DNA from: a virus
Length of the DNA stretch: 36,417 nucleotides
Reading direction: 5' to 3' (one strand)
Virus record (IMG/VR): IMGVR_UViG_3300021087_000039
Span: 1 to 36,417 of that record
The translations under genes were made by a program, and so were the position numbers. The notes beneath the pieces are model-generated. The model saw only the letters and a list, made by a program, of their open reading frames with translations. It made no database searches and was not told the origin of the DNA. Shown here piece after piece: positions 1 to 29,260 of this stretch; position 1 is the stretch's first letter; each line of letters opens with the position of its first letter.

Positions 1-3000
1 TCGCGCTCGCACTCGCAGTAGTCGTGGTGGCCTCCGTGTAGGCATCACCAACAGTGGCCGTTGTTTCATTGTCATTCCATGACCTCTGGGTGGAGCAACC
101 GCCACTCTGCTGTATCCCATCTATCATAAGGCAGGACACAAAGTCAGTTCCTGTCCGCGCCACCACGGTCGTTGTATCAACGAGGGTGTTGGTGACCGTC
201 GTAGCGGTCGTCGTGACTGTAGTTGTATCTAGATGCCAGTGACCGTCGTTGCTGTTATGCGTCAGAATCCCCGACTCTGAGGTGGTGACATTGGTCGTGG
301 TTGCTGTCCCCGTCTGGGCAGTTGACGAGGATGTAGAGATCGTTTCTTGCAATGACACAGCAGTGTTCGTATATGTGTAGGTCGGAACATAGACCGGAGC
401 AGGAGGGGGGATGTATGTCTCTTGGACTTCTTCGGGGAGATATTCTTCTGCGACCTCAGCATCAACTATCCCTGCTTCTACCTCAACAGTGAAGTCAACC
501 CATGTAACATACCCACCCGGCGGAGTACCCCAGTCATCGTAATAGTTAGGATCATTTGCTGCGTCGTAAGCCTCCCAACTAGTGAAGCCGCCGGGAGCCA
601 TAGAGCAGGCATCCGTACCCCTACACCCTTCATAGGGATCCCAACTAGGTTCAGGTACTACTGGTTCCGGTTCCTCTACTACTGGCTCTTCTGGTGGCTC
701 CTCTGGCTGCAATTCACACCAGTGTTCATCACAAATATCAGGTGAGTCTTCATCAGGCCAAGGCACCACCTCTTCATCCCAGTATGGATCTTCTTCCTCG
801 TCCCAAGGCTCCTCGTCCCAAGGCTCCTCTTCACACCAAGACTCCGCATCACAAACGTCAGGCTCTTCAGGCTCCCAATCTGGATCCCAGTCTGGATCTT
901 CTACCTCCCAATCTGGGTCTTCTTCGATCTCCTCATCCCAAGGCGGCTCTTCGCACCAATCAGTATCTGAACAGCCCTCCTCTACCTCAGGCTCCTCCAC
1001 CTCAGGCTCATCCGTTTCTTCGATTTCAGGTTCGTCTACTTCTTCAGAAGGCACCTCCGCTTCATCCACTTGCTCTTCATCCACTTCCTCTTCTGAAGGT
1101 GAATCTGGCTCGGGTAGAAGTTCTTCGTCAAAGGTGCCTGTATCTTCCGGGTCGGTGAATGGGTCTTCCTCATCATCCCACAACTCTGGCTCTTCCAAGT
1201 CATCAACATCTTCACCCGTGAATTCATTCCAGTCGTCCCACTCCTCCTCGGTCCACTCCTCGGTCATGTCCTCCCAGTCCTCCTCCCACTGGGCTTCCAT
1301 TTCCTCGTCGTATTCCTGCCAATCCTCTTCTGTCCATTCCCATGTTTCGCTAGGTGGTGGTCCCCAGTCCTCGGGCCACTCCTCTAGACCCTCCTCCTCC
1401 AGAATCCACGCTTCCTCATCTTCCGCTGACCAGTTTCCCCACTCGTCATCTTCTTCTAACCAAAGATCATCTTCAGATACATTTTCATCTTCTTCTTCCA
1501 TCCAATCTTCATCAGACCAATCCTCTTCCAAGGACAAATCGGAATCTTCATCCAAGGACCACTCGTCATCTTCTTCATCATTGACCTCCCATAACAATTC
1601 CTGTTCAGCGTCATACGCTTCCCAATCACCATCATCCCACAGCGCGGTTTCGCTAGGTGACGGACCCCAGTCCTCTGGCCATTCGTCAAAACCTTCCTCT
1701 GCAAGAATCATGGCCTCTTCATCAGCGGCCCACTCTTGATCGTAGGCGTCCCAATCGTCTTCAGTCCACTCTGCGGATTCCGTGGGTGACGGACCCCAAT
1801 CCTCAGGCCACTCCTCTACACCCAGTTCTTCCAGCAGTTCCTCTTCCCACGACTCCGGATCTTCCATCTCCTCTTCCCAGATGGCGTCCATTTCCTCGTC
1901 GTAGATATCCCAATCTTCTTCTTCCCAGTCAACGGTTTCGGTAGGCGACGGACCCATGAGGTCTTCGTTCCACTCCTCCAAACCCATCTCTTCCAGAATC
2001 CACGCCTCTTCCAAATCAGCGTCATACTCCTGAAAGGCGAAATCCTCTTCGTAATATTCTTCTTCGTACTCCTCCCAGAACTCCTCCTCATCAAACTCTT
2101 CATGTTCTTCAAAGAATTCGATGCGCTCCTCTTCGACCTCCTCCATGAACGATTCAACTTCTTCAAACAGTTCTTCAACATCGACAGCCTCACCAAAGAG
2201 ATCGTCCATCAACTCCTGTTCTTCTTCAAAATATTCGTCGTCGTATTCGACTTCTTCCCACTGCTCGTCTTCCCAATACTCTTCATCCACACTGAGAAGA
2301 ATCTCAACGAAATCAATCTCATCTTCTTCAAATATTTCAGGGGCTTCCCACTCTTCAACTGATTCGATCTCTTCGACGTAGGACGCGCCCAACACTTCTT
2401 CAATGCGATCCTCAGCAACCGCTTGGAAATATTCAGCATCCGAAGCGACCCACGCTTCAACTTCAACTTCCTCTACTGTGATCTCCCCTACATCTACATC
2501 GAACGTCAGTTCGATAACAACGGGAACGATTACCGGTTCTGGTGCAGGGGGCAGGGTCGCTGCCGGAGCATCCGGTCGATCCGGAATGGTGACAGTCGGT
2601 TCATCGAACACCTGTTCGACAACCCGGTAAGCGGTCATGTCAACCTCTACCTCGGCCAGCACCTCGCCCGCTTCATCTTGAATAGCAATATCCAGCGTGT
2701 CTCTGACTGGCTCCGACTCAGGAATTGTGACACCCGGCTGCTCAGGTTCAGGCTCCGGTTCTGGAGCAAAAGCCACCTCAATTTGCTGACCGGCTTCCAG
2801 TTCGATCTCAACCTCAAGGGCATCAACAGCAATCGCGACAGTCGCTTCCTCTATCTCTGCAATTTCGATTGATTCTTCAGAGAAGGCCAACAACGACTGA
2901 GCCTCTTCAGGTTCTTCTTCAACCTCTTCTTCAGCCTCTTCCCACCGTTCCGGCTCTTCCTCCTCCACGATGACCGCTTCAATCTGAACCGATTTCTCCT

Positions 3001-4294
3001 CGCTCAGAACCAGCAGAGAGAACTTTTGTTCAGTTTCTTCTTCTATCTGTTCCTCTATTGCTTCTTCGATTCTGTCCCTAGTAGAAGTCGGCTCTTCTAC
3101 TTCGGGAGTTGGAACATCAATCTCTTCGACATCTGCGGAGAACGACTCCACCCCCGGTGGAAGAAACACCAAAACTGGATCAGCGGTACTTGGCCCTGAA
3201 ATCAGATAACGATAAGTAGCGCCTTCAATTTCATTAACGAACGCACCATCGTAGTAACCCAGCCTGTCACCTGATTCAGTTTCAATCTTAAGAGCCATCT
3301 GCTTGTCACCAGAAGCGGCAACGGTAAGCATTGTCCCTGACTCTTCTCCCTCTTCCTGAGGGCAGAAACTGCAAGTAAACGGACCGGACCGGGAACGCAT
3401 CGGAGTGAGTTCCATGGTCCCCGTCCCACCAAACCAAGCCTCCGATTGTTCCGTGGGGTTGGTCGCAGCAAGGGCATACATCCATTGACCGTCATTGGAT
3501 ACGTCGATCCAACGTTCCTCGTTAGGCCAGTTGGAATCGTAGATATGGATGCGATAGCCACCGGCCATCTCTTCTACTCGGTAAGGCGTGACGGCGTGTC
3601 CGCCCATCTCGCTGTAAATACCGATTGTGAAACCGGTGTGCGGGTTTCCCTTTTCTGCTTCTGAGAAATCGTAGAGAAGAACCTCTGCCAATTCCGTGGG
3701 AGACTTCTCTAGATAAGAGGATGCTTCCTGCTGCACCTCCATGGCGAACTGGGTTACATACCAGTAGGCGATTTCAGAGAGGAGGGCCGGATCCTGCTTG
3801 ATGAGTTCCGCAACAGTTTGTGTGTTTTGGAAGGTCGCAAGGGTTTCTATGTCGCCCGCGAGGCGGAGGCTCAACACCGCCAAGCCTTCGCACAGCCCTC
3901 CACGCATTGACTTGTTGGCCTGCGACATCAACTGCAAGATCACCGGATACGGCGTACATTGACCGTCGGTTACATCTGAACAAACTTGGTTGTCGCCGTA
4001 CAGACGACGCGCCATGTTTACTGTCAGGTCTGCTGGTGCTTCCCCACCACCGAAGTTCTCAAAAGAGAAGGTGTCATCTACGGTCGCGTAATTCGGGATG
4101 GCGTGATCCGCCAGAGGAACTTCCTCAAGAACTACTGAAGCGATAGTGGCAGTAGGGGCAACAGTTGTCGTGACTACATCAGTGGTCGTCGGAGGAAAGA
4201 GTGTCGTCGGAGATGCATCCGGATCTCCGGCAGGGGAGGAACATCCGAATAAGAACAGCGACCCCGCTAGCAGGGTGGCGATAAACCGTTTCAC
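1..4294 (-). CDS. Giant acidic, Trp-rich lipoprotein with cysteine-peptidase-like N-terminal domain (partial, 3' end outside window)
   Basis: One uninterrupted reading frame runs from a GTG at 4294 off the left edge, giving at least 1431 residues. Residues 1-18 form a lipoprotein signal (K-R, hydrophobic stretch, lipobox L-F-G-C with Cys18), followed by a Thr/Pro-rich linker (about 25-50), so it is probably a lipid-anchored exported protein. Residues 90-275 resemble papain-like secreted domains: Cys135 in a GGLCEGLA context, His233 in GGHAVTPY, and Asp253/Asn255 in IYDSNWP could form a triad. From about residue 390 the chain is dominated by Glu and Asp with about fifty Trp, including four WPEDWGPSP-type repeats and three C-D-x-x-W-C units, then a Thr-rich stretch to the edge. 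The GTG lies 4 nt after the preceding stop, suggesting co-transcription with it. Function is unknown: surface masking, superinfection exclusion or adhesion are guesses. Frame and lipobox are clear; the peptidase assignment is tentative. Confidence 0.85.
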   Translation of the reverse strand, partial: MKRFIATLLAGSLFLFGCSSPAGDPDASPTTLFPPTTTDVVTTTVAPTATIASVVLEEVPLADHAIPNYATVDDTFSFENFGGGEAPADLTVNMARRLYGDNQVCSDVTDGQCTPYPVILQLMSQANKSMRGGLCEGLAVLSLRLAGDIETLATFQNTQTVAELIKQDPALLSEIAYWYVTQFAMEVQQEASSYLEKSPTELAEVLLYDFSEAEKGNPHTGFTIGIYSEMGGHAVTPYRVEEMAGGYRIHIYDSNWPNEERWIDVSNDGQWMYALAATNPTEQSEAWFGGTGTMELTPMRSRSGPFTCSFCPQEEGEESGTMLTVAASGDKQMALKIETESGDRLGYYDGAFVNEIEGATYRYLISGPSTADPVLVFLPPGVESFSADVEEIDVPTPEVEEPTSTRDRIEEAIEEQIEEETEQKFSLLVLSEEKSVQIEAVIVEEEEPERWEEAEEEVEEEPEEAQSLLAFSEESIEIAEIEEATVAIAVDALEVEIELEAGQQIEVAFAPEPEPEPEQPGVTIPESEPVRDTLDIAIQDEAGEVLAEVEVDMTAYRVVEQVFDEPTVTIPDRPDAPAATLPPAPEPVIVPVVIELTFDVDVGEITVEEVEVEAWVASDAEYFQAVAEDRIEEVLGASYVEEIESVEEWEAPEIFEEDEIDFVEILLSVDEEYWEDEQWEEVEYDDEYFEEEQELMDDLFGEAVDVEELFEEVESFMEEVEEERIEFFEEHEEFDEEEFWEEYEEEYYEEDFAFQEYDADLEEAWILEEMGLEEWNEDLMGPSPTETVDWEEEDWDIYDEEMDAIWEEEMEDPESWEEELLEELGVEEWPEDWGPSPTESAEWTEDDWDAYDQEWAADEEAMILAEEGFDEWPEDWGPSPSETALWDDGDWEAYDAEQELLWEVNDEEDDEWSLDEDSDLSLEEDWSDEDWMEEEDENVSEDDLWLEEDDEWGNWSAEDEEAWILEEEGLEEWPEDWGPPPSETWEWTEEDWQEYDEEMEAQWEEDWEDMTEEWTEEEWDDWNEFTGEDVDDLEEPELWDDEEDPFTDPEDTGTFDEELLPEPDSPSEEEVDEEQVDEAEVPSEEVDEPEIEETDEPEVEEPEVEEGCSDTDWCEEPPWDEEIEEDPDWEVEDPDWDPDWEPEEPDVCDAESWCEEEPWDEEPWDEEEDPYWDEEVVPWPDEDSPDICDEHWCELQPEEPPEEPVVEEPEPVVPEPSWDPYEGCRGTDACSMAPGGFTSWEAYDAANDPNYYDDWGTPPGGYVTWVDFTVEVEAGIVDAEVAEEYLPEEVQETYIPPPAPVYVPTYTYTNTAVSLQETISTSSSTAQTGTATTTNVTTSESGILTHNSNDGHWHLDTTTVTTTATTVTNTLVDTTTVVARTGTDFVSCLMIDGIQQSGGCSTQRSWNDNETTATVGDAYTEATTTTASASA
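714..973 (-). repeat. Three C-D-x-x-W-C-E repeats inside the acidic lipoprotein
   Basis: Within the giant lipoprotein, three short segments share a Cys-(Ser/Asp)-x2/3-Trp-Cys-Glu pattern (CSDTDWCEE, CDAESWCEE, CDEHWCEL), about 120 nt apart and separated by Pro/Trp/Asp/Glu-rich spacers such as EEPWDEEPWDEE. Paired Cys five or six residues apart, repeated three times, suggest small disulfide loops or a metal site in an otherwise disordered acidic chain. Confidence 0.6.
1351..1985 (-). repeat. Four WPEDWGPSPSE-type repeats inside the acidic lipoprotein
   Basis: Four related units begin near 1351, 1657, 1790 and 1943. Each encodes a core like EEWPEDWGPSPSET, followed a few residues later by D-W-x-x-Y-D and a Trp/Glu-rich spacer. 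Spacing is irregular (about 306, 133 and 153 nt) and the copies have diverged, the 1943 copy reading EEWNEDLMGPSPTE. This looks like an old duplicated protein module rather than recent slippage. Confidence 0.7.
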
Positions 4295-4298
4295 GGCT

Positions 4299-4739
4299 CT
4301 ACTGCCGTTTGCGTTTATTCTGGTACCAGAAAAGAAAGCCGACTAGAACAACTAACGCGGTAGCGACAATAATAACGGTTACCGATCCACCCGGCGCTCC
4401 GCTCATGTCCAACGAAAAGTTTTTGGTCCCACCGCCAAGAAGATCGTTCTCGGCCTTCATCTCTGCTACTGCCTGCTCCAACTGTTCAACCTTGTAGTTG
4501 AGAGCAGCCTCTTCCCCAGATGATTGCCAGATGAATCCAAAGGCTCCAGAAATGGCAGCAGGTAGACCAAGGACGTAGGCTATGTTGTCTTTGATGCGGT
4601 CAAACAAGCCTGAAGCGTGTTTAGCCGCACCGACGACAGACATACCTACGCCCTCGGTTACCTCTAAGTCCGTTTCCTCCAGTGCGTTGGAAATATTATC
4701 CGCAGCACCTTCCAAGTATTTCCGAAGCGCGTCATCCAT
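4299..4739 (-). CDS. Small membrane protein of the presumed lysis/surface module
   Basis: 146 residues. The N-terminal half is polar and acidic. A hydrophobic stretch lies near residues 53-71, then a coiled-coil-like segment near 75-97 (KVEQLEQAVAEMKAEN), and a strong transmembrane segment near 118-136 followed by a basic tail (NKRKRQ). That pattern suggests a protein anchored by its C-terminus with a positive cytoplasmic end. The ATG has a good ribosome binding site (AGAGG about 6 nt upstream). The stop is 4 nt before the lipoprotein start, and a holin-like gene lies upstream. It could be an accessory lysis factor, a second holin or an anchor for the acidic lipoprotein. I recognise no family. 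Confidence 0.75.
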   Translation of the reverse strand: MDDALRKYLEGAADNISNALEETDLEVTEGVGMSVVGAAKHASGLFDRIKDNIAYVLGLPAAISGAFGFIWQSSGEEAALNYKVEQLEQAVAEMKAENDLLGGGTKNFSLDMSGAPGGSVTVIIVATALVVLVGFLFWYQNKRKRQ

Positions 4740-6999: not shown

Positions 7000-8025
7000 A
7001 TGGCCTTAGTTAGAGAGTACCCCGGATGCAGAACCCCGATCCCTTACGTCTCCGAAGCAGACTGTGAATACATCGGAGGTCTAGAGGTACACGACTATGG
7101 GGCAGGGGTTACCGTATTTCGCAATGTCATAGACGTAGACCAGCCTAGATTATTTGAATACATAGACAAATATGCCGTGCATTCAACGCCGGGAGTGTTT
7201 CTCAAAGAAGAAAACGGCGAGCAGTGGTGCGAAGACCTAGAAGGCAGGAAGCATCCAGTAGCAACCTATTACAGAAATCCATATCGACTTGGTGGATTTG
7301 GTAACAGCAAACCCGTCATGGATAAAACTCCTAAGGACATCGCGGAGTTCTTCTATGAAAACGAGAATCAAATCTATCTGTGCCTAATGAAATACATAGA
7401 CATATACACCCATGTTCTCAACTCATTGTGGTGGCGCTTTAGGGGCAATGTTCTCAAGTATTATCCCAACGGAGCAATCGGAATGCATAGCGACAATGAC
7501 ACCAGTCGCAAGACCAGAGACGGGCAGCGATACGAAACTGATCGTCCTGAAGCCATCTTCCAAGTTCTTTCCACCATCACCTATTACAACGATTGCGTGG
7601 ACACGGAAGAAGAACTAGACGGAACCAATTTCACGGGTGGAGAGATGTGGTTTCCGTTCCTTAACAATCTTACTTACAAGCCGCGTACCGGAGACATTCT
7701 GTTCTTCCCCGCGAACTATGTTGGTTCACACGGTGTACGAGACATCACTGGTGGCATAAGGTACGACTACCAATCTGTGTTTGGTCAAGGAATACATACA
7801 GACGAACCTTCCCCTTTGGTTCCGATTTATGAATCAGATGCCGGACATTGGTGTCAGGCCATTTACCTGCCATGGCTTCATCAGGATTGGGAAAGGTTTA
7901 CCCAATCTCCACATTCAAGGTGGAACACCAAAGGCGAAGGACCACCCAACGGTGAGATCAATCCATTATTGCGACCTGTCGAATCCGACCCAGAAGGCCC
8001 ACTGATGTCCTATGAACATATTTGA
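7000..8025 (+). CDS. 2-oxoglutarate/Fe(II)-dependent oxygenase, paralogue 1
   Basis: 341 residues. The double-stranded beta-helix core carries the iron triad His163-x-Asp165 (GMHSDND) and His244 (VGSHGV), with Arg254 (GGIRYDY) ten residues later as the likely 2-oxoglutarate anchor. Between them, NFTGGEMWFPF and a KPRTGDILFFPANY stretch are typical of prolyl-4-hydroxylase-like folds. The N-terminal lead-in (GAGVTVFRNVIDVDQ) recurs in four other proteins here. Such enzymes use O2 and 2-oxoglutarate to hydroxylate proteins, nucleotides or small molecules; the substrate cannot be read from the sequence. Its last 14 nt overlap the next oxygenase gene. Confidence 0.9.
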   Translation: MALVREYPGCRTPIPYVSEADCEYIGGLEVHDYGAGVTVFRNVIDVDQPRLFEYIDKYAVHSTPGVFLKEENGEQWCEDLEGRKHPVATYYRNPYRLGGFGNSKPVMDKTPKDIAEFFYENENQIYLCLMKYIDIYTHVLNSLWWRFRGNVLKYYPNGAIGMHSDNDTSRKTRDGQRYETDRPEAIFQVLSTITYYNDCVDTEEELDGTNFTGGEMWFPFLNNLTYKPRTGDILFFPANYVGSHGVRDITGGIRYDYQSVFGQGIHTDEPSPLVPIYESDAGHWCQAIYLPWLHQDWERFTQSPHSRWNTKGEGPPNGEINPLLRPVESDPEGPLMSYEHI

Positions 8026-9031
8026 TGCTTCCACCCCTGAAATAACCGATGACACCTTAAGGGAAATCCAAAACCTAGAGGCAGATCATCTTGGTGGAGG
8101 CGTAGTCAAATTTGGCAATACCTGCACAGTGGACCCCTCATTCTTGTCTTGGGTTGACGACAACGCTTCTGAAGCCTTTGAACAGAACTGGACTTACGAA
8201 ACAGACGAAGCCGGAAACACCTACGCCCTTAATATTGATCGCAACAAGTTCTCGCTTGAACAAGTCAAGATGGTGCCGACTCGTCTGTTACAGCCGGTCA
8301 AACACGACACTCCTCAAGACATCGTTGACATCTTTCAACATTACGAAGCCGCCATCTACAAATGCCTAATCAAATATATAGACATGTTCCCTCTTGTGTT
8401 GGGCACTATTTGGTGGCGTTCTAGGGGACACGTTCTACATTACGATCCGGGCAGTTTCTTGGGGGTACATAACGACAACGACGCCAACTACAGAGCCTTG
8501 GATGGGCAACGATTTATTCCCCACGCACAGAATGGCTCTCGTCAAACACTTGCCATTATCTTGTATCTAAACAACGGCATCAAAGATCCCGAAGAATTGG
8601 ATGGCACCAACTACCTCGGTGGGGAAATCACATTCCCTTATCTGGACATTGAACACCAAGGACAAATAGGCGACGTTCTAATCTTCCCATCCAACTTCAT
8701 GGCATCGCATGGAGTGAACACAGTTATCGAAGGCACTCGGTACTCGTATCTAGAATTCCTATCTCACGGAAGCCCCTCGCCGGAAGTAATGGTCGAAGTG
8801 TTTGAACCCGACGAAATACAAGCATGGTGTGAGCCGCACTGGCTAATGGGCATCTACGAAGATTACGCCAAGTACGCACTCAAGACGCAGCAAGGCAACA
8901 CGGACAGAACAGCAACTAGTTCTGTCAACCCGGTGTTTCAAAACAGATCGCTAGAGGGGGAGGTAGGACTAAAGAAGGCGTATGCCCACGAAGATGTTGT
9001 AGAACAGAATCTGGTAAGAGGACAGTCGTGA
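8012..9031 (+). CDS. 2-oxoglutarate/Fe(II)-dependent oxygenase, paralogue 2
   Basis: 339 residues. All expected active-site residues are present: His153-x-Asp155 (GVHNDND), His233 (ASHGVNT) and Arg243 (EGTRYSY). It aligns along its length with the preceding gene: a HLGGGVVKF lead-in, IWWRSRGHVLHY before the first His, an L-D-G-T-N-Y-L-G-G-E-x-x-F-P segment, and DVLIFPSNF. A C-terminal extension of about 80 residues lacks recognisable motifs. The start lies inside the upstream gene and the stop overlaps the GTG of the next (GTGA), so the three are probably translated together and arose by tandem duplication. The substrate is unknown. Confidence 0.9.
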   Translation: MNIFDASTPEITDDTLREIQNLEADHLGGGVVKFGNTCTVDPSFLSWVDDNASEAFEQNWTYETDEAGNTYALNIDRNKFSLEQVKMVPTRLLQPVKHDTPQDIVDIFQHYEAAIYKCLIKYIDMFPLVLGTIWWRSRGHVLHYDPGSFLGVHNDNDANYRALDGQRFIPHAQNGSRQTLAIILYLNNGIKDPEELDGTNYLGGEITFPYLDIEHQGQIGDVLIFPSNFMASHGVNTVIEGTRYSYLEFLSHGSPSPEVMVEVFEPDEIQAWCEPHWLMGIYEDYAKYALKTQQGNTDRTATSSVNPVFQNRSLEGEVGLKKAYAHEDVVEQNLVRGQS

Positions 9032-9786
9032 CGCCGGAAATGACAAATGAAATTCTTGATGAAATACTCGGTTACAGGGACAAGATCAGCAATCTGGGAG
9101 GTGGGATCGTACAGTTCCACGATGTAGTGGAAATAGATCAACTCACACTATTGCCTCATCTTGATCAACTGGCCGAAGAATCCCATACCTCCCGATGGGA
9201 ATATACAACCGACGAAGATGGACATGATATTGCCTTGAACGAAGACGGGTACCAATTCCTATTACACGAAATCAACGAAGCCCCTATCCCTATCCGCCAC
9301 CCAGATACACAACTATTCAAAGACGCGTTATACAAATGTGCCCTCAAATACATCGACCTGTTTCCTGTGATGATGCTGGAAACCGTCTGGTGGCGAAGCG
9401 AGGGTCACTACCTCAAATACCCCACTCGTTCTTATCTGGGCAAGCACAGCACCAACGTCCAAACCATCAGCCTTCAACTATTGCTTAATGATGACTATTC
9501 CGGTGGGGAAATGAAATATCCATACCTTGATGTGGCCGTGGAAGCAAAGGCCGGGGACGTAGTTGTGTCCCCCTGCAACTTCGTGGCTGCCCATGAAATC
9601 AAACCTATTACTGAAGGAAACAGATATTCCTATTTAGAGTTCTACTCACAAGGAAGTCCAGAAAAGGGGATTCCCATGCTCAGTAATATCTTCAACGATT
9701 ACGATAAGTTGCTGGACCGAAGAAACAATCTTTTAGCGGCTTACGGCATGCGACACGGTTTGATGAATTTCGGTCACAGTGATTGA
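9028..9786 (+). CDS. 2OG/Fe(II) oxygenase-like paralogue 3 with altered metal motif (H-S-T)
   Basis: 252 residues, GTG start overlapping the upstream stop. It is clearly a paralogue of the two preceding genes (NLGGGIVQF lead-in, VWWRSEGHYLKY, YSGGEMKYPYLD, GDVVVSPCNF), but about 35 residues between the metal motif and the core strands are missing. His140 (GKHSTNV), His189 (AAHEI) and Arg199 (GNRYSY) are kept, but the iron-binding Asp is replaced by Thr142. In SyrB2/WelO5-type non-haem iron halogenases the equivalent Asp is Ala or Gly, freeing a site for halide; Thr at this position is unusual. It may be a halogenase-like, changed-chemistry or catalytically dead regulatory paralogue. The frame is intact, which argues against decay. 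Confidence 0.8.
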   Translation: MTPEMTNEILDEILGYRDKISNLGGGIVQFHDVVEIDQLTLLPHLDQLAEESHTSRWEYTTDEDGHDIALNEDGYQFLLHEINEAPIPIRHPDTQLFKDALYKCALKYIDLFPVMMLETVWWRSEGHYLKYPTRSYLGKHSTNVQTISLQLLLNDDYSGGEMKYPYLDVAVEAKAGDVVVSPCNFVAAHEIKPITEGNRYSYLEFYSQGSPEKGIPMLSNIFNDYDKLLDRRNNLLAAYGMRHGLMNFGHSD

Positions 9787-9787
9787 G

Positions 9788-10570
9788 ATGAAACTGAACC
9801 TCGGCTGCAACTTCCATCAACCAGAAGGATGGATCAACGCAGACATTAGGGAAGAATTCAATCCTGACGTATTGTTACCAATGCCAGAAGAACCCCTGTG
9901 GGAGGGCGCCTTATCTACAAAGACTACCAATAATCCCCTGCCATGGGAGAACGACACGTTCGATCAAGTATTACTATCTCATGTATTAGAGCACATTTGG
10001 TTGGAGGAGGTGCCCTCATTTTTGCATGAGATTCGACGTATAACCAAGACTGGCGGTCAACTACTTATTATTTGTCCTGATGTAAACACATTAGTGCGAA
10101 GGTGTGTGGGCCTTAATAGTGTTGGCTGCATGGGCCACGATGCGGACGGCCATAACTGGTATATCGAACCCCCGATGGACAGAAACGTTGAAAAACCATG
10201 GTCTACGGAAACTGTAATAGAACACCTATTTAGCGAACTGGTATTGGAAGATGATCCACGTTTAAGAGATGCGGCCGCGGCACGCATGAACGACGGAATT
10301 AGAAGTCAGTTCGGCAAACTGGCACTACCTCATTCTGATCATAAATGGAATTCATACGGAAATCGACTACTTGAAATAGTGCAGGAGGTTTATCCCTCTT
10401 CCGAATTGTTGGGAACCAATGGCATGCCCGAAGAAATCAGAGCGCAGGGCAGAGAAACTAGCACCCACGGCAATCCCTACGAATTCCAATGGACGGATCC
10501 CAACAGTGGATATGTGTGGGACACCACCAGTTGGACCAGCGCTACATGTTCGGTGCTGTCAACTCGCTGA
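9788..10570 (+). CDS. SAM-dependent class I methyltransferase
   Basis: 260 residues from the ATG at 9788, one nt after the preceding stop. Motif I is at the extreme N-terminus (KLNLGCN), followed by GWINADI as the acidic end of strand 2. FDQVLLSHVLEHI (strand 4) and a GGQLLIICPDVN segment (strand 5) follow, which is the Methyltransf_11-type layout. It would transfer a methyl group from SAM; the acceptor is unknown. It is the last gene of the rightward operon and its 3' end overlaps the converging oxygenase gene by 29 bp. A role in tailoring the product of the neighbouring oxygenases is inference. Confidence 0.85.
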   Translation: MKLNLGCNFHQPEGWINADIREEFNPDVLLPMPEEPLWEGALSTKTTNNPLPWENDTFDQVLLSHVLEHIWLEEVPSFLHEIRRITKTGGQLLIICPDVNTLVRRCVGLNSVGCMGHDADGHNWYIEPPMDRNVEKPWSTETVIEHLFSELVLEDDPRLRDAAAARMNDGIRSQFGKLALPHSDHKWNSYGNRLLEIVQEVYPSSELLGTNGMPEEIRAQGRETSTHGNPYEFQWTDPNSGYVWDTTSWTSATCSVLSTR

Positions 10571-11450
10571 TTTGACTGCTCGGCGCTCCATCTGAACCAT
10601 GCACAGGAGGAACCCAATCCCCCTCCTTGTTGCGCCATGCGTCCACATGCGTTTGACTCTGTCCATCTATCGGCGTGCCTTGACAATAGAACTGTAGATA
10701 AGAAACACGATCTCCATTAGTAACAGTTTCCACAGAATGAGATCCAATATAAGACGACGGATAAAATGCCACTGTTCCAACTGGGAACTTCTCTTTATGC
10801 TCTGCGTGGGGGAAATACATCGACCCACCTTCAGCGGTGTCCCTTAAAATTATAGAACCCGTTACGACAGTCTTAGTTGGAAACTCATTTACAGGCTTGT
10901 CATTCTCATCCGCCGGACCATACCCCCACATGCTGTCACCGCGCTCCACGGCCTGATCGGAATGCGGCCCAAGCGAATGTCCCTCAGAATAAATAGCAGC
11001 ATGACTAGGGGTTCGATACCAGATCGAAACACGAATCTCTGGATACATCACCATATACTCCTCTAAGCACATGGCCAAAACTGAATCCAAATATTCGACA
11101 AAGGCTTTATCTTCCGGCTCGGCGTCGTACAATAATCCAACAAGACGTAACGGAGTCGTGTTGAATTGTTCGGGGGTGAACTTGTACCCCCCACGATTGA
11201 TGTAGTTACCATCCTCATCAATCGTAAACTCTTCAGCCGTTTTCAAACGACGATCAGTCTTTCCTTCAAGATTTCCCACGAAGGCAGAACGCCGTTCTAT
11301 CCAACCTTCTAAAAAGTCTTGATCTATTTCAGCAGCATCTGGAAAAACAACTAATCCTGCTTTGTGCTTGATCCGCGTGAATTTGTACCCGCCGCGATTA
11401 GCCGAACGGGACCGAATGTTCATATTCTTATCGGCTATCCAATCACCCAT
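10542..11450 (-). CDS. 2-oxoglutarate/Fe(II)-dependent oxygenase, paralogue 4
   Basis: 302 residues. The iron triad is His163-x-Asp165 (GPHSDQ) and His238 (GSHSVE), with Arg248 (GDRVSY) as the 2-oxoglutarate ligand. It is related to the plus-strand trio: AGLVVFPDAAEIDQ lead-in, FTIDEDGNYINRGGYKF, VSIWYRTPSH before the first His, and a VSYLQFYCQGTP end. The motif NRGGYKFT occurs twice (residues 18-25 and 85-92), so the N-terminus carries a partial duplication. It is the terminal gene of the long leftward operon; its start overlaps the upstream gene by 8 nt and its end overlaps the opposing methyltransferase. The substrate is unknown. Confidence 0.9.
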   Translation of the reverse strand: MGDWIADKNMNIRSRSANRGGYKFTRIKHKAGLVVFPDAAEIDQDFLEGWIERRSAFVGNLEGKTDRRLKTAEEFTIDEDGNYINRGGYKFTPEQFNTTPLRLVGLLYDAEPEDKAFVEYLDSVLAMCLEEYMVMYPEIRVSIWYRTPSHAAIYSEGHSLGPHSDQAVERGDSMWGYGPADENDKPVNEFPTKTVVTGSIILRDTAEGGSMYFPHAEHKEKFPVGTVAFYPSSYIGSHSVETVTNGDRVSYLQFYCQGTPIDGQSQTHVDAWRNKEGDWVPPVHGSDGAPSSQISELTAPNM

Positions 11451-12108
11451 TCGCTTCTATCCAACTGTCATCAGTTCGTGAGTATTTTTCAATATCCTCT
11501 GGGGGAGGAACGTTTTCTTCCATCATTTGACGCTTGTATGCCTTTGCGTCGCCATCTACTATCTCAACATGTAAGGCACTCAAGGTGTCCACGCCTTCTT
11601 CTGACATCAGCGCTACAACATCCTCAGCAGAATCGCCGTTCACAAACAACATACGACCATCCCGATCTGGATACCCATAAAGAGAACCCGACACATAGGA
11701 CGCTCCATTTGAATTCACATAATCGGCCAGAGCGAGTTCCCAACGAGCCTGAGCAGGATCAGAAATAATACTGTTGCAATCTACATAAATGCCTTTGAAG
11801 CCAGCCTCCATGACTTCTTTCGCCACTGGAAATTCAACGACTTCACCTTCGGTGTCTAAACCGTAGACAGCGAACACACCGTGTCCGCCACAGAGACAAA
11901 AGATCACATCTACTTCATCCACCAATTTCTGGATGGTTCCAACGTCTTCAAATTCCTGCCCCCGCTCTTTAGTTTCGTCAGAGCGACCGTCGGTAGCGAC
12001 GAACACCTCATGCCCGACGCTCTTAAGCACATTACCCACGGCTGTAGCCATTCTTCCGGGGTGCAGTATTCCAACTTTAACTGGGAGGATGCTCAAGGTT
12101 GTACCCAC
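11443..12108 (-). CDS. NAD(P)-binding beta-hydroxyacid dehydrogenase-like protein
   Basis: About 221 residues from the GTG at 12108; a TTG at 12096 or ATG at 12153 are alternatives, all overlapping the upstream oxygenase gene. The Rossmann start VGILHPGRMATAVG corresponds to the GxxGxG loop of 6-phosphogluconate/3-hydroxyisobutyrate dehydrogenases. GHEVFVATDGRS is strand 2, VDVIFCLCG strand 4, and YVDCNSIISDPAQAR followed by a SYVSGSLYGYP segment matches the family's substrate-loop region. The helical C-terminal domain of full-length members (about 290 residues) is missing, as is an obvious catalytic Lys. It could oxidise a hydroxylated product of the adjacent oxygenases or only bind a cofactor. 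Confidence 0.75.
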   Translation of the reverse strand: MGTTLSILPVKVGILHPGRMATAVGNVLKSVGHEVFVATDGRSDETKERGQEFEDVGTIQKLVDEVDVIFCLCGGHGVFAVYGLDTEGEVVEFPVAKEVMEAGFKGIYVDCNSIISDPAQARWELALADYVNSNGASYVSGSLYGYPDRDGRMLFVNGDSAEDVVALMSEEGVDTLSALHVEIVDGDAKAYKRQMMEENVPPPEDIEKYSRTDDSWIEANG

Positions 12109-12925
12109 TTTCCATAAATACGTTTGTCGATATCTTAGCACCACCCGGATCAACGGATGGATCTACGGCCATCTCGTTGACTTCTGGGTTCGGAGTTCCC
12201 TGACAATACCATCCGACATGGCTATATCTTGAACCTCCGCTCACCAGAGAAACCGCGTGGGAGGCCATGTAGTTGGACGGGAAAATCAACAGATCACCCT
12301 TGGAGGGTTTGTATTGAATGTCCAAGTATCCGAAATGGACGACTCCCCCTGTGAAATTGGTCCTATCCAATTCTTCCTCGGTTTCTACATGATCGTTGAA
12401 AAAAGCAATAGTTGAAACCACGGTTCTGGTAGCGATCTGATCTGTCGGAGTGGGTGAACCGTAGGCGTAGTCGGTGCTGGTGTCGGCGTGCATTCCCAAG
12501 TAGCCACCTTTTGGATACACCAAGATGTGGCTTTTGATCTTCCACCAAATAGACATGCCCGCTATGGGAAAAAGGTGCAAGTAATCCCACAGGCAATCGT
12601 CCTTGGCATCCTCCAACTTTTTGAGAACTGCCTGTATCTCAGGTCTATCGTCCGCTTGGGTATAGGCGCAATGTTGAGGCATCACTTCTATTGATTCTGT
12701 TGGAAAGAAATACCCATTGCGATTTATGTACCCGTCCTCACCGCTGATCGGATCTTTGCCGGGGACATACATCGTGTCCCTCTCCCTCATCGCAGCCTCC
12801 TCTGAGTAGGCTCTGAGAAGATCCCAGTCCGTTGAGATGTGTTCCCTGTATAAGACCACCCCTCCGCCTAGATGCTCTCCCCTGCCGCCCTTGGGCTGCC
12901 AAGTATCTCCAAACCCTAAACTCAT
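12077..12925 (-). CDS. 2-oxoglutarate/Fe(II)-dependent oxygenase, paralogue 5
   Basis: 282 residues; the ATG at 12925 overlaps the upstream TGA (ATGA) and is preferred over an ATG 45 nt earlier inside the upstream gene. The active site is complete: His146-x-Asp148 (GMHADT), His223 (ASHAVS) and Arg233 (GSRYSH). It shares the HLGGGVVLY lead-in, GEDGYINRNGYFF, MSIWWKIKSHILVY and NFTGGVVHFGYLD segments with the other members of this paralogous family. It lies between a TauD-like oxygenase gene and the dehydrogenase-like gene in one transcription unit. The substrate is unknown. Confidence 0.9.
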   Translation of the reverse strand: MSLGFGDTWQPKGGRGEHLGGGVVLYREHISTDWDLLRAYSEEAAMRERDTMYVPGKDPISGEDGYINRNGYFFPTESIEVMPQHCAYTQADDRPEIQAVLKKLEDAKDDCLWDYLHLFPIAGMSIWWKIKSHILVYPKGGYLGMHADTSTDYAYGSPTPTDQIATRTVVSTIAFFNDHVETEEELDRTNFTGGVVHFGYLDIQYKPSKGDLLIFPSNYMASHAVSLVSGGSRYSHVGWYCQGTPNPEVNEMAVDPSVDPGGAKISTNVFMESGYNLEHPPS

Positions 12926-13746
12926 CTGTAAATGCCTATCAACGAGGGATCCATCAGCGGAACCTTCCACGCCTCCTCATGCCCTCCGTGGTATACCCCC
13001 CGATCAAACACCCGCTGCCCCAATTCAAATCCCCAAGTGACTGCATGTGCCATACGCATCCCTGCGAACATCACCATGTCACCCTGTTCCCATGACCACC
13101 ACTCTTGGTTTGTTTCGTCGTACAAATAATTCTGAATCCACGCATTGATTTCTACGAGGTCATCTTCTGTTAAACCATTACAAGTTTCTATGTCAATGCG
13201 ATATGGAGGCTGGATAGTGTCTTTGTATCCCTGCATGTGAAGTATCAACTCTCCTGTTAACCCATCCTCTTTTATCAACTTGACGGGAGAATGGATCAAC
13301 GGCGACTTGAAGTGTGCTACTTGTTCTTCTACGGTGCGAGCGTCTTTTATTCCTTCTCTCCATTTGTTTGGAAGAGATGTGTACGCACCATGCATGTCTA
13401 CGAATCCGGTCATCCCTTTATCCTGATCCACCTCAAAGGTGTGCATGTTCATGGCGATGACTACGGCGGGATGTTCCTTAAAGGTGTCTTCCACATGCCA
13501 TGTGAGAAATAATTTGGCCTTCCCCAACTCGGGGTCTTTCATACATTGATGAAATCTCGTCCGATGATCTACATCCTTAGACACAGGGCTATCATCAAAC
13601 CCCATACCAATCAAAATATCTGTAAATTCTTGCCGCTTCAAACCGATCTCACGAAACCCCAACACTAAATTTTCCCGCAACAACGACCTGAAATATTCGG
13701 GGTCTTTCCTCAAATCATCCCCAGTAACTCCTTTAAGTTCAATCAT
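12922..13746 (-). CDS. TauD/TfdA-family dioxygenase with H-x-E metal motif
   Basis: 274 residues from the ATG at 13746, which overlaps the upstream gene's 3' end by 8 nt. It has the TauD layout: a Leu-rich start (EYFRSLLRENLVLGFREI), a metal motif TWHVEDTF with His84 and Glu86, a TGFVDMHGAY strand, then a MFAGMRMAHAV segment with His234, and Arg245/Arg249 in the 2OG-binding tail. Most TauD enzymes have H-x-D-x-T-F; an H-x-E variant is known in clavaminate synthase, so activity is plausible. TauD-type enzymes mostly act on small molecules, which differs from the prolyl-hydroxylase-like neighbours. The substrate is unknown. Confidence 0.85.
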   Translation of the reverse strand: MIELKGVTGDDLRKDPEYFRSLLRENLVLGFREIGLKRQEFTDILIGMGFDDSPVSKDVDHRTRFHQCMKDPELGKAKLFLTWHVEDTFKEHPAVVIAMNMHTFEVDQDKGMTGFVDMHGAYTSLPNKWREGIKDARTVEEQVAHFKSPLIHSPVKLIKEDGLTGELILHMQGYKDTIQPPYRIDIETCNGLTEDDLVEINAWIQNYLYDETNQEWWSWEQGDMVMFAGMRMAHAVTWGFELGQRVFDRGVYHGGHEEAWKVPLMDPSLIGIYR

Positions 13747-14383
13747 TCCAATACTGCAAATGCGATCCGCGATCATGCAAAATATTTAGACTTTCCAAGG
13801 TGTCTGTCAAAAAGGACTCTCTCAGATCATCACCCATCTCAAACATCGCAGCACACACATAATCCAAGATCGCCTGAAGCAACGCCTCGTAAGTTACTCC
13901 GTGGTCATCCGCTGGTTCCGGATACAGATGATCCCTAGTAAGCGGCCTGTCCCCTTTCCTATAACCGCCCGCTCCGGAGCCTCGCCAATCCGGATAATGC
14001 CATTCGTTGCCGATATGACGCCGTTCTTGAGGAGTCTCAAATATCTTCCGTAGCGTCCCTTCTTGACTGCCGAAGTCCTCTTGCTCATTCAAGGTATATA
14101 TCAAAGTGCCATTGCGACTGAAGATGAAGGCTTTGGCAGAGGAATGCAGCCTGCGATATGGCTCTACCTTGTTCCACTCATACGATCCCCAAGAAGCAAT
14201 CGTCCACTGGAAATCTTCCCCCAAATCCTGTAACCGTTGACACAGGGCAGTCAACTCCGGAGATTCCAATCCGAAAATAACTAGAAGCATTTTCCCTTCG
14301 TATTGCTCAAACAGTGAGTCACCGTAAAGACCCCTCGTGTATACCCACGGAATATGATCGCCCTCTCTAAATTCAAGACTCAT
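13739..14383 (-). CDS. Redoxin-like protein lacking the usual active-site cysteine
   Basis: 214 residues; the ATG at 14383 overlaps the upstream TAA and follows AGGAG. The N-terminal half resembles the AhpC/peroxiredoxin fold: FREGDHIPWVYT, a LFEQYEGKMLLVIFG strand, an SPELTALCQRLQDLG helix and AKAFIFSRNGTLIYTL. At the position of the peroxidatic Cys it reads GLESPEL, so the usual catalytic residue is absent; Cys48 lies further along the helix. The C-terminal half is unique and holds an EWHYPDWRG segment rich in Trp, Tyr, Gly and Arg. It may be a structural or binding partner rather than a peroxidase. A related-fold gene (glutathione-peroxidase-like) lies 4 kb upstream in the same operon. Confidence 0.65.
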   Translation of the reverse strand: MSLEFREGDHIPWVYTRGLYGDSLFEQYEGKMLLVIFGLESPELTALCQRLQDLGEDFQWTIASWGSYEWNKVEPYRRLHSSAKAFIFSRNGTLIYTLNEQEDFGSQEGTLRKIFETPQERRHIGNEWHYPDWRGSGAGGYRKGDRPLTRDHLYPEPADDHGVTYEALLQAILDYVCAAMFEMGDDLRESFLTDTLESLNILHDRGSHLQYWND

Positions 14384-15156
14384 TACTGCTCCTTGGGCTG
14401 AACAGGGCATTTACCAATGTCCGCTAAAATCGGATGCCCCCCATACGCCGGACCGATACGTTCATCTTTTTCATTCAAACCAGTGCGTATGCCCCCCGCC
14501 CACACCCACGGTTCATCTATTTCCTTCTGGGCTTTTGCCGCCCCATAGGCGGCTCGCGCTTTCCTCAACTCTGGATCATCTCCCATATCCCTAGTTGCAA
14601 ACTCCACCGATGGCAACAGATCATCGTGGTAGAACTGAAAGAACATGAACGGCATCCCTTTGGGAAACCGCACGGGAGTATCGAACTTCGTTATCAACCA
14701 GTTCATATTCCATTGGTCAGGCCACCAACTGGTAGGAATAGAGGCTGTCAACGGAACCGCACCATCAATAAAGTAGTTAGGTGTGCCTGTGATCCATGTG
14801 CTTACACCCTCTGGTGTTTCCATAGACCAACCAGTATCAAAAGAAATTATGTTGATGATGCTGGGAGAAACTATAGGACGGACATAGGTGCCTCCCCGCT
14901 CATGTGTGTGAGTAATCGTTTCTCCGCTCAATACCCTCGGCACTGTTCCATGAAATCCAGATCCGTATTCAGGGGCATCTACCTGAACGACTACATCTTG
15001 TTGTAACTCCAACTCCCAACCATGTATGTTGGCTGATGTCATAGGCAAACACTTATACGCATGTTTATTGTAAGTGTCATCCATCCAGTCGCGTCTCGGC
15101 AACGCCTGCCGGATCGGCGGCGGATTATCGTGAGCGCGAGTGAGAGTTACTTTCAT
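14383..15156 (-). CDS. DUF6065-like protein, copy 1 (unknown function)
   Basis: 257 residues; the ATG overlaps the upstream stop (ATGA). It shares an architecture with two other proteins in this window: LPRRDWMDDTY-like start, a W-E-L-E-L-Q strand, a SPSIINIISFDTGWSM strand, W-I-T-G-T-P-N-Y-F, then IPTSWWPDQWNMNWLI and F-P-K-G-M-P-F-M-F-F-Q. The strand-rich pattern resembles proteins grouped as DUF6065, as far as I recall. No catalytic motif is evident. Copies sit beside 2OG oxygenase genes here and beside the halogenase gene elsewhere in the window, so a shared role with these enzymes (substrate presentation or an unrecognised activity) is likely by association only. Confidence 0.7.
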   Translation of the reverse strand: MKVTLTRAHDNPPPIRQALPRRDWMDDTYNKHAYKCLPMTSANIHGWELELQQDVVVQVDAPEYGSGFHGTVPRVLSGETITHTHERGGTYVRPIVSPSIINIISFDTGWSMETPEGVSTWITGTPNYFIDGAVPLTASIPTSWWPDQWNMNWLITKFDTPVRFPKGMPFMFFQFYHDDLLPSVEFATRDMGDDPELRKARAAYGAAKAQKEIDEPWVWAGGIRTGLNEKDERIGPAYGGHPILADIGKCPVQPKEQ

Positions 15157-15851
15157 GCGTGAAATGGTGTCGTAATCACGATCTGATCGGTTTCTGTGAA
15201 GGCGGGCGCTTCATACTGTGCGGTACTGGGATCTTGGTGATTGCGGTCGTTGTAGTCATACATCGTGACCGCCGAATACTTTGTACCCTTCGTCACGGGC
15301 AGAGAAGCGTGGGCATACACGAAGGTTGACGGGTGTACCAGCACATCACCGAACTCAGGTAAAAAGTTCATGTTCTGATGGGGCATGTGATACTCCCCGC
15401 CCTCGTAATCGTCATTGATATATCCGATAGCCGATACTGTGGCAACGTAGGAGAAGCCGTGATCGGCGTGGACGGCAAAGTGCTGTCCCTCGTTGTATCG
15501 AACGAAGTTGGTTGCTTCCTCAAAATCTAGTTGAAGGTTGTAACAGCCTGCGTAATGCTTCACGCACTCTCGTATTCCTGTTATTACTTCGTCATAGACC
15601 GCAGCCGCAGCCGAAAACTCTTCCGGGCAAGTTTCTAGATCGGAAGCACGCATCTTGAAGTCGGAGCAATCCCGGTAGTCGGGCATCTCTTCCATGTCAC
15701 CGACGAGGGCTTTCTTCCATGAGTAATACTCATGTTCACTGTCCCCGATACAGTCCTCCAACCTCTCCACAAAGTTGGAGTCTTCCGGCCAGACCTTCTT
15801 GTAGAGGGCAATCCCAGAAGCGGGATGGCAGACGTATCCTGCGTATTCCAT
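15153..15851 (-). CDS. Prolyl-4-hydroxylase-like 2OG/Fe(II) oxygenase
   Basis: 232 residues. It has His128-x-Asp130 (VHADHG), His181 (AHASLPV) and Lys191 (TKYSAV), the H-x-D...H...K pattern of the prolyl-4-hydroxylase (P4Hc) class, in which Lys binds 2-oxoglutarate. YINDDYEGGEYHM between them is a class hallmark. The preceding NFVRYNEGQHF is typical for the strand before the first His. This subgroup differs from the GGGVV-type paralogues, which use Arg. It is preceded by GGAG and sits one base after the upstream oxygenase stop. Prolyl hydroxylation of a nearby Pro-rich protein (19122-19619) is an attractive but untested role. Confidence 0.9.
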   Translation of the reverse strand: MEYAGYVCHPASGIALYKKVWPEDSNFVERLEDCIGDSEHEYYSWKKALVGDMEEMPDYRDCSDFKMRASDLETCPEEFSAAAAVYDEVITGIRECVKHYAGCYNLQLDFEEATNFVRYNEGQHFAVHADHGFSYVATVSAIGYINDDYEGGEYHMPHQNMNFLPEFGDVLVHPSTFVYAHASLPVTKGTKYSAVTMYDYNDRNHQDPSTAQYEAPAFTETDQIVITTPFHA

Positions 15852-15852
15852 A

Positions 15853-26429: not shown

Positions 26430-27191
26430 CTAACCCATAGGACATTTCCCCGCATCAGCCTCGCGCTGGTGCTTGCGATAAAGACCCTTTCTATTGCCAG
26501 CCCGGAATCCGAAGGTGCCCACACCGCGGTTCCAACCCATATCCCACATTTCTTTGAGTCCCATGATGATCGTCTTGACCTTGTCGTTCCTCTTAATAGG
26601 AATCAAATGGTATAACGGAGTTCCCGCACGCACATTAAATGATTCCCCCGTCATCACACGAATAACAGCATGTAGGTTGTGGTAGTAATCCGTGTTCACG
26701 ATGGCTGGTAGAACTTCATAACGAGCATCAGGCTCATAAGCCACCGGTAGAACCAGCATCGAATAGCCGGGAGCGGTCTTATACAGATAGGGGGACACCA
26801 ATTTCAAGTACGCTGCCTCCGGACGCGCCCTACCATCATTGATGGGGGCACCTTCGCAAGAGTCGTAACTAAAGCGTTCCACACCAAAAAAACCATCCGC
26901 TGGTGTCGCCACAAAATCCGTATGGCCCATGGGATCAAACTGCATGTCACACCACAGCGGCACAGTAATGCCCGTGGAGAGATAGTCCTGAATCCCCTTA
27001 CACCCAAGCATCGTAGTACCCCGCTCCTTCGGCATGTTCTTCCACCAGTCGGGCCAAGTGGTGCCGTTGATTACGGGAGGATTCTCCAATAGGCGATAAT
27101 CCTTAGGGATCATCAATATTTCTCCGGGCTTGACCTTGGGCCAATCACGGTAAGTCCTGATTTTATCTGAGTTCTTTAAGTGTTTCAGCAT
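26430..27191 (-). CDS. DUF6065-like protein, copy 3 (unknown function)
   Basis: 253 residues. It is closely related to the 16511-17269 product: YRDWPKVKPGEILMIPKDYRLL, CKGIQDYLSTGITVPLW, SPYLYKTAPGYSML, YEPDARYEVLPAIVNTDYYH, RVMTGESFNVRAGTPLYHLIP and a basic G-L-Y-R-K-H-Q-R-E-A-D-A-G-K-C-P end. The ATG lies 29 nt inside the halogenase gene's 3' end, so it is probably translated with it. Copies beside a halogenase gene and beside oxygenase genes imply a common accessory role. No catalytic motif is visible and the function is unknown. Confidence 0.78.
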   Translation of the reverse strand: MLKHLKNSDKIRTYRDWPKVKPGEILMIPKDYRLLENPPVINGTTWPDWWKNMPKERGTTMLGCKGIQDYLSTGITVPLWCDMQFDPMGHTDFVATPADGFFGVERFSYDSCEGAPINDGRARPEAAYLKLVSPYLYKTAPGYSMLVLPVAYEPDARYEVLPAIVNTDYYHNLHAVIRVMTGESFNVRAGTPLYHLIPIKRNDKVKTIIMGLKEMWDMGWNRGVGTFGFRAGNRKGLYRKHQREADAGKCPMG

Positions 27192-28653: not shown

Positions 28654-29259
28654 CTACTGAAACCAAGTCACTAGTACATACTTCTCCCCTTCTTCCACCG
28701 GAAGGGCTTTATGCGAATATGGAAAACAGGCTGGCATCAATACGAGAGTTCCGGCTGTTGGTTTAATCTCAACATCAAATAACGGAACTGCCAATTCTCC
28801 ACCAACGTAATCGTCATTCAAATAAAGAAGCAACGACAGCAAACGCATATTTGTGGAACTTGCATCGGCGTGCATCTGATATTCCGCTTTGTTTGCATAT
28901 CTCAAACAACGCAGTCCTTGGTTCCTTTGCAGTTTCAGATTGAAGGCCGACCGATAGTTGTGGATTTGCACTTCGTATGCATTTATCAGATCCGACAAAT
29001 GATTTCTCAAATCTACAACATGCGAATCGTTGGCATACTGAAGCCTGTCTCCGAGGATTTCATGGAAATCCATTTCAACACTGGTTCTATGATCGGAGAC
29101 GACATTCCTAGTTCCCTCTTTGGGGCCATAAACTAGGGATCTCTTCCACGGTGCCACAGAAGGGTCCATATCCCCAACTATTTTTATCTTATCCAGCAAG
29201 CCTTCCGCTTCTGAATAAAATCCATCCCATACACATATGCCCGGCGCTATTTGTTCCAT
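28654..29259 (-). CDS. Prolyl-4-hydroxylase-like 2OG/Fe(II) oxygenase
   Basis: 201 residues, a compact single domain. The triad is His130-x-Asp132 (YQMHADASS) and His183 (YSHKALPV), with Lys193 (GEKYVLV) binding 2-oxoglutarate. LLYLNDDYVGGELAVPLFD between them is typical of the P4H class, as is the lead-in CLRYANKAEY. The stop is 3 nt from the halogenase start and the upstream oxygenase gene is 1 nt away, so the three form one unit. The substrate is unknown. Confidence 0.9.
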   Translation of the reverse strand: MEQIAPGICVWDGFYSEAEGLLDKIKIVGDMDPSVAPWKRSLVYGPKEGTRNVVSDHRTSVEMDFHEILGDRLQYANDSHVVDLRNHLSDLINAYEVQIHNYRSAFNLKLQRNQGLRCLRYANKAEYQMHADASSTNMRLLSLLLYLNDDYVGGELAVPLFDVEIKPTAGTLVLMPACFPYSHKALPVEEGEKYVLVTWFQ

Positions 29260-29260
29260 C

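Follow-up and report, generated by a model that had tools for sequence, protein, structure and literature searches.

A genuine, phage-specific gene family of unusual architecture encodes giant lipoproteins, each accompanied by an all-but-invariant membrane-protein partner. One member lies at the left edge of the linear IMG/VR record of 36,417 bases that is analysed here over its whole length (the window). The first-pass annotation had described a lipobox protein of more than 1430 residues with a long Glu/Asp stretch containing about fifty Trp, and both statements were borne out. The window reads 1431 residues, and the full gene of 1614 residues is present in IMGVR_UViG_3300031757_000666, a near-identical contig from another metagenome with 2 differences over the shared 1431; residues 641–1215 hold 282 Asp/Glu and 49 Trp, and the mixed Trp/acidic motifs noted earlier recur, EWPEDWG 3 times and DWxxYD 4 times. 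The account of the acidic Trp-rich tract stood in all points checked; what needed correcting was the orientation, the gene being on the minus strand, and the picture of the N-terminal ~400 residues, which form an ordinary and strongly conserved fold. To our knowledge, the protein is among the largest phage-encoded lipoproteins, and no acidic, Trp-rich or papain-like phage lipoprotein was found in the literature that we searched.

Scans of IMG/VR, with one protein and then with two alignments, returned 38, 95 and 105 relatives, the last figure being 105 places in IMG/VR contigs in a single scan; counts over 80 contigs given below refer to the 80 listed loci out of the 95 relatives of the second scan. 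The lipoprotein of the window begins with VKRFIATLLAGSLFLFGC-SS, a lipobox. A lipobox-like start is present in 79 of the 80 listed contigs, in which starts were picked by script to fit the lipobox pattern, and the remaining contig is cut at this point. The features of the gene and its surroundings are collected in Table 1.

Table 1. Features in the window and relatives of the lipoprotein head on plasmids; coordinates are window positions unless a locus is named.
Feature	Coordinates	Strand	Remarks
Giant lipoprotein gene	2..4294	minus	GTG start; open at left edge; 1431 of about 1614 residues
Signal peptide and lipobox, residues 1–18 (LFLFGC)	4241..4294	minus	
Thr/Pro-rich linker, residues 19–73	4076..4240	minus	
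Papain-like head (likely), residues 74–302	3389..4075	minus	Alignments, model, structure comparison, Rhodococcus relative
Conserved beta-rich domain, residues 309–395	3110..3370	minus	Weak immunoglobulin-like matches
Middle region, residues 396–640	2375..3109	minus	Acidic, moderately conserved
Acidic Trp-rich tract, residues 641–1215	650..2374	minus	Repeated cassettes
Start of C-terminal part, residues 1216–1431	2..649	minus	Thr-rich
Partner gene, 146-aa protein	4299..4739	minus	Directly upstream of lipoprotein gene
r1t-type holin gene, 68 aa	4838..5044	minus	phrog_443 E 3.6e-12; precedes the pair
Trp halogenase	27163-28650	minus	PF04820 E 4e-103
Rhodococcus plasmid relatives of the head	L193:5893-7398 and L194:3893-5398		Annotated hypothetical; WP_241065042.1, WP_307846829.1

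Acidic residues (137 Asp, 306 Glu) far outnumber basic ones (9 Lys, 23 Arg) among the 1431 encoded in the window, which also include 62 Trp, and a single Lys/Arg falls within residues 641–1215; in the full protein, residues 801–1200 are ~50% Asp/Glu with 41 Trp and no Lys/Arg. When the lipoprotein's own residues were shuffled 500 times, the longest Lys/Arg-free run averaged 166 residues and reached at most 378, compared with 500 in the actual protein, and the densest 400 residues averaged 23 Trp with a maximum of 30, compared with 42. Chance composition is ruled out as an explanation of the tract, since the shuffles never reach its basic-free run or its Trp density. The tract evolves under purifying selection: against 9 relatives, pN/pS is 0.13–0.40 in the tract, 0.05–0.24 in the head and 0.27–0.44 in the C-terminal part, and the aligned tract Trp residues are kept at 42 of 46 positions versus L098 and 38 of 45 versus L043. 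A frameshift or assembly error within the tract, which the first-pass annotation had named as a possible refutation, was not found; it is ruled out by the agreement of separate metagenome contigs and by the low pN/pS, purifying selection on the tract implying that no frameshift is present.

Cassettes of the type EEWPEDWGPSPTES..W..DDW.AYD are repeated along the tract. The GPxP core is present in 0–7 copies among 37 distinct full-length proteins, whose length ranges from 985 to 1733 aa and whose Trp content ranges from 22 to 83. When the heads were placed in a tree, the clade of the window (11 rows) consisted of cassette-rich proteins, which also turned up in a separate group (L071, L063 and L080). 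The short relatives L107 (985 aa) and L103 (1022 aa) have 26–27 Trp and are without the large acidic expansion; they keep the head, the partner and the C-terminal domain, with a short acidic stretch containing Trp and an arm that is Thr-rich instead. The expansion of L072 is Glu/Pro-rich and has few Trp (22 in the whole protein). Because the short relatives and L072 lack the Trp-rich expansion, the Trp-rich tract is a lineage-specific elaboration and not the core of the protein. Where it is developed, it is unusual as a natural polymer: no basic residue occurs over 500 positions, and roughly every tenth to twelfth position is a Trp. In a separate comparison of the lipoprotein genes of L045 and L041, pS is 0.04 in the head and 0.30 in the C-terminal part, a contrast that suggests a mosaic history of the gene by recombination.

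The most conserved part of the lipoprotein is the head, residues 74–302. Four of its residues are invariant: C135 (codon 3890-3892), H233 (3596-3598), D253 (3536-3538) and N255 (3530-3532). All 80 listed contigs contain the motifs (G/A)GLCEG, GGHA(V/I/L)TPY and YDSNW at nearly fixed spacing, and the order Cys, His, Asn/Asp never varies among them, with spacings of 96–98 and 22–23. Papain-fold (clan CA) peptidases and amidases such as staphopain and IdeS share this order and spacing with the head, and the likeness extends to the predicted helix after the Cys and the predicted strand bearing the His; papain itself has a similar HAV...Y...Asn-Trp arrangement. Two Rhodococcus plasmids encode a 501-aa protein that shares 26% identity with residues 74–323 of the lipoprotein (E 1e-11). 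The Cys, the GGHA motif and Asp-x-Asn are all conserved in it, but the acidic Trp tract is missing and its annotated start has no lipobox. A plasmid search with the Rhodococcus protein returned no plasmids beyond the same two.

A first structure model, of residues 1–398 from 14 sequences, was poor (pLDDT 42.8), and its Foldseek rows were disregarded as meaningless. A second model, from 54 aligned sequences, reached pLDDT 63.8 and pTM 0.62. In it, the Cys begins a helix, the His is part of a long strand and the Asn comes just behind the following strand. With this second model, Foldseek found nothing in the PDB at E <= 0.001 (all E above 0.06). When VIA-align was used to rank Foldseek's first 1000 chains, the best row was staphopain (Z 6.1, rmsd 4.1, 121 aligned), followed by BtaeB (Z 6.0), IdeS (5.1) and phytochelatin synthase (4.7), and then AvrPphB, cathepsins and calpain; the top 8 rows span Z 6.1–4.6, all below 8, over model residues about 55–233. 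We take these eight to be papain-fold enzymes, in the case of BtaeB by assumption. A Z near 6 may by itself reflect just a common arrangement. No cysteine peptidase model in Pfam, NCBIfam or PADLOC matches the head, which belongs to no peptidase family named there, and a sequence search of solved structures with the lipoprotein returned nothing useful. Since invariant residues in the right order coincide with a Z near 6, the head is quite likely to be papain-like, a reading that draws on the residues, their order and a middling model; that it is also catalytic is possible, and we incline modestly towards it. Compared with clan CA enzymes, the phage lipoprotein is lipid-anchored, carries a very large C-terminal extension and has a membrane partner gene adjoining its own.

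A relative of the partner, 128–159 aa in length, is encoded directly upstream in 79 of the 80 listed contigs, and the exception, L106, is a cut contig. By the script's measure, the gap between the two genes is 0–33 bases in 78 of 80 and 153 in one. The partner of the window has hydrophobic segments at residues 53–71 and 119–137, an acidic, coiled-coil-like loop and a basic C-terminus; the 30 clustered partners repeat this plan, with a middling hydrophobic segment, then an acidic, heptad-like loop of 46–48 residues, and after it a strong segment that leads into a basic C-terminus. Hydropathy suggests that both ends are inside and the loop outside. PHROG matches of the partner are spanin-like but weak (phrog_739 E 0.003, phrog_214 E 0.3) and are not enough to name it.

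Beyond the window, the lipoprotein appears to have a PPC/DVUA0089-like end. The model NF038127 (DVUA0089 family) scores 3 of 10 C-termini above cut-off (L103, L105 and L107), 1 below it and 6 not at all, the window's virus being among these six. DVUA0089/FDP and PPC C-terminal domains are the closest known counterparts, the three NF038127-positive members being divergent ones. The C-terminus of the window's clade aligns with two of these three at 28% and 36% identity but falls short of NF038127 itself.

Neither the lipoprotein head nor the partner matched any of 50,697 INPHARED records. WhiB is encoded in 14 of 20 larger lipoprotein-bearing records; in a control with 14 genomes, the WhiB search matched Corynebacterium glutamicum only. 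This gene content points to uncultured Actinobacteria as hosts, probably marine, and WhiB has been used likewise as a host clue for a marine phage fragment (PMC3861242). The first-pass annotation had advised looking for the gene in host genomes. Across 84,980 species genomes, 43 pattern matches reduced to one locus (L040), on a 3.3-kb contig of a Phycisphaerae MAG; 1 of 294 genomes in its phylum matches, that same MAG, and L040 is most likely a stray phage contig. A host origin of the lipoprotein gene on a mis-binned contig is ruled out by this single, probably stray locus.

The pair often lies among lysis and tail genes. The holin that precedes it in the window falls 0.2 bits under the cut-off of Pfam PF16945 (E 6e-6, 26.7 against 26.9 bits). 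G005 has genes for a portal, a major-head-like protein and a tape measure; right after the pair, it encodes an endolysin that combines VanY-like and PG-binding parts. A count of lysis genes covered forty records, all linear and often fragments, and 30 of these encode a holin or a PG-binding protein of endolysin type. At most 2 kb separates the pair from such a gene in 18 of the 30, compared with 7.9 expected by random placement, an enrichment that does not come from independent cases, the records being partly near-duplicates. It is within 2 kb of a holin in 13 of 29 records and of a PG-binding gene in 11 of 17, the latter count leaving out 8 of 34 rows below the family cut-off. Shortly before the partner, L052, L067 and L072 encode tail-fibre proteins (Mtd_N) or tail chaperones (Phage_tail_APC, E 6e-16 and 5e-18). 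The position of the pair between tail-fibre and lysis genes in many contigs suggests late expression.

A papain-like head, an invariant membrane partner and a holin/endolysin neighbourhood together shift the weight towards an enzyme-bearing envelope protein. Our preferred explanation, offered tentatively and at somewhat less than an even chance, is that the pair is a late envelope module of actinobacterial phages, in which an anchored enzyme of papain fold, borne on a polyanionic arm, assists lysis or release. After export, a lipid on Cys18 would anchor the lipoprotein to the outer side of the cytoplasmic membrane and keep its papain-fold, cysteine hydrolase-like head nearby. Next along the chain would come the beta-rich domain, then an arm that is polyanionic and Thr-rich, and in some lineages Trp-rich as well, and finally a PPC/DVUA0089-like tip. 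The partner would sit in the same membrane with its short coiled-coil loop outside. Made late, along with the products of the tail-fibre and lysis genes, the pair might act on the host envelope, the head cutting or disabling a protein or peptide linked to the wall or membrane, while the arm takes the tip outward through the wall; cell opening by holin and endolysin, and with it the liberation of progeny, would thereby become easier. Accessory membrane proteins are known from lysis cassettes, LysZ in corynephages and LysF1a/LysF1b in mycobacteriophages, but they are small proteins with one or two TMDs, and no lipoprotein partner is named for them in the cited sections of that work (PMC13056207). 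LysZ, of ~177 aa, has one TMD in an N-in/C-out arrangement (PMC13056207), whereas the partner has two hydrophobic segments. Against a role in release, the pair lies more than 2 kb from any lysis gene in 12 of the 30 records, and since the hosts are probably single-membraned, holin and endolysin could suffice. We also know of no lysis protein of such size.

The main rival explanation, a serious one although rather unlikely, is the exclusion of other phages, as the first-pass annotation had suggested. The pair could serve superinfection exclusion or receptor clearing, disabling the receptor or injection path of the phage's own tail fibres much as T5 Llp acts on FhuA, and infected cells and debris would then stop binding phage. 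By this analogy, the position of the lipoprotein gene behind genes for tail fibres or tail chaperones in the three contigs named above would correspond to that of T5 llp, just downstream of the receptor-binding gene pb5 (PMC9586334), and the partner gene would recall the T1 cor locus with its two upstream membrane-associated genes (PMC13164509); the outer arm of the lipoprotein also changes fast, and TP-J34 Ltp is a superinfection-exclusion lipoprotein from a Gram-positive system (PMC3952083). Llp, Cor and Ltp are phage lipoproteins too, and the gene place after receptor binding is shared in part of the contigs, but only the family described here combines an enzyme-like head with an obligatory membrane-protein gene, and receptor jamming needs no such head. 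Known exclusion lipoproteins are small, Llp being ten or more times smaller than the lipoprotein here, whereas this family spans 985–1733 aa; moreover, no PHROG matches the lipoprotein better than E 0.54, and lysis genes adjoin the pair in 18 of 30 records. Under release and exclusion alike, the acidic arm would be a stiff, extended polyanionic spacer. The first-pass annotation had also proposed shielding of the cell surface or cation binding, roles that the tract itself might fill. Such a cation- or polycation-binding brush would account for 500 residues without Lys/Arg, ~50% Asp/Glu and many Trp, all under selection; the idea is nevertheless weak and improbable, as the shortest relatives lack most of the tract yet keep all else, L072 has a Glu/Pro-rich expansion with 22 Trp in all, and tract length varies, whereas head and partner hardly do.

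That the pair is a two-component spanin of an unusual kind, or that the lipoprotein is carried on the virion, is very unlikely. The weak Rz-like matches of the partner and the combination of a lipoprotein with a coiled-coil membrane protein near lysis or tail genes speak for it, but Rz/Rz1 spanins have one N-terminal TMD and an N-in/C-out topology, whereas hydropathy shows two segments and, in all 30 partner sequences, a C-terminus that is basic and therefore probably inside. The outer-membrane lipoprotein of spanins is small compared with the 985–1733 aa found here, a virion protein is not expected to bear a lipobox, and WhiB indicates hosts for which we know of no outer membrane. It is extremely doubtful that the lipoprotein is the substrate of the phage Trp halogenase, another proposal of the first-pass annotation, which gained no support. 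Both genes are in the window, and among records of at least 50 kb (14 of 40) the 4 with a halogenase encode lipoproteins with 53–82 Trp versus 26–54 in the 10 without (p 0.006), a comparison in which the G002 protein is cut and G004 and G007 are near-duplicates. Halogenase and Trp-rich lipoproteins occur, however, in the same part of the head tree, and the halogenase records with a full-length head belong to one clade, so shared ancestry explains the association with Trp equally well. A halogenase is present in 5 of 40 lipoprotein-bearing records, 4 of which contain enough of the lipoprotein gene to judge and encode Trp-rich forms, its relatives occur in 70 INPHARED records of which none matched the lipoprotein head, and an exported lipoprotein would meet a cytoplasmic FAD enzyme only before export.

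The pair is assigned to no named family: Llp/Cor, spanins and LysZ each differ from it in a defining feature. It is possible, although we would not yet lean towards it, that a membrane-anchored papain-fold enzyme, a dedicated two-segment membrane protein and a hyperacidic, wall-crossing arm whose Trp-richness is tuned by lineage make up an undescribed system with which phages of uncultured marine Actinobacteria remodel the envelope late, for release, for receptor stripping that lets progeny escape, or for both. The phage-envelope step in Actinobacteria is known mainly from mycobacterial and corynebacterial phages, and if the enzyme reading is true, the family provides a testable handle on envelope handling by phages of uncultured Actinobacteria.

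Several other genes were recorded in passing. Downstream of the pair in L041 (14842-18776) are genes for a single-cluster ferredoxin (Fer4_15), an SNase-type nuclease and a polysaccharide deacetylase, together with a glycosyltransferase and a PhyH-like gene recognized by eye. A protein of 269–290 aa (cluster c11, L041:15500-16348) is encoded shortly downstream of the pair in 9 clustered loci and has no Pfam match at E 0.1. In the window, positions 19622-23224 (minus) encode a 1200-aa tail-fibre protein with an Mtd_N start (PF18454 E 1e-14), Mtd_N being the N-terminal domain of a tropism determinant. Positions 19122-19619 (minus) encode a 165-aa protein with HFPP/FFPP repeats in its C-terminal half, and other frames there hold long Arg/Glu-repeat ORFs. 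A 504-aa protein with Gly/His/Glu repeats (GEGGNVVSGHS) at 29917-31431 (minus) lies in the window's GC-richest kilobase (0.588), and its N-terminal part matches phrog_13336, of unknown function (E 4.6e-8). About eight genes in 7000-16593 and 28654-29914 resemble 2OG-Fe(II) oxygenases by eye, and the one tested had a PHROG match at E 4e-6.
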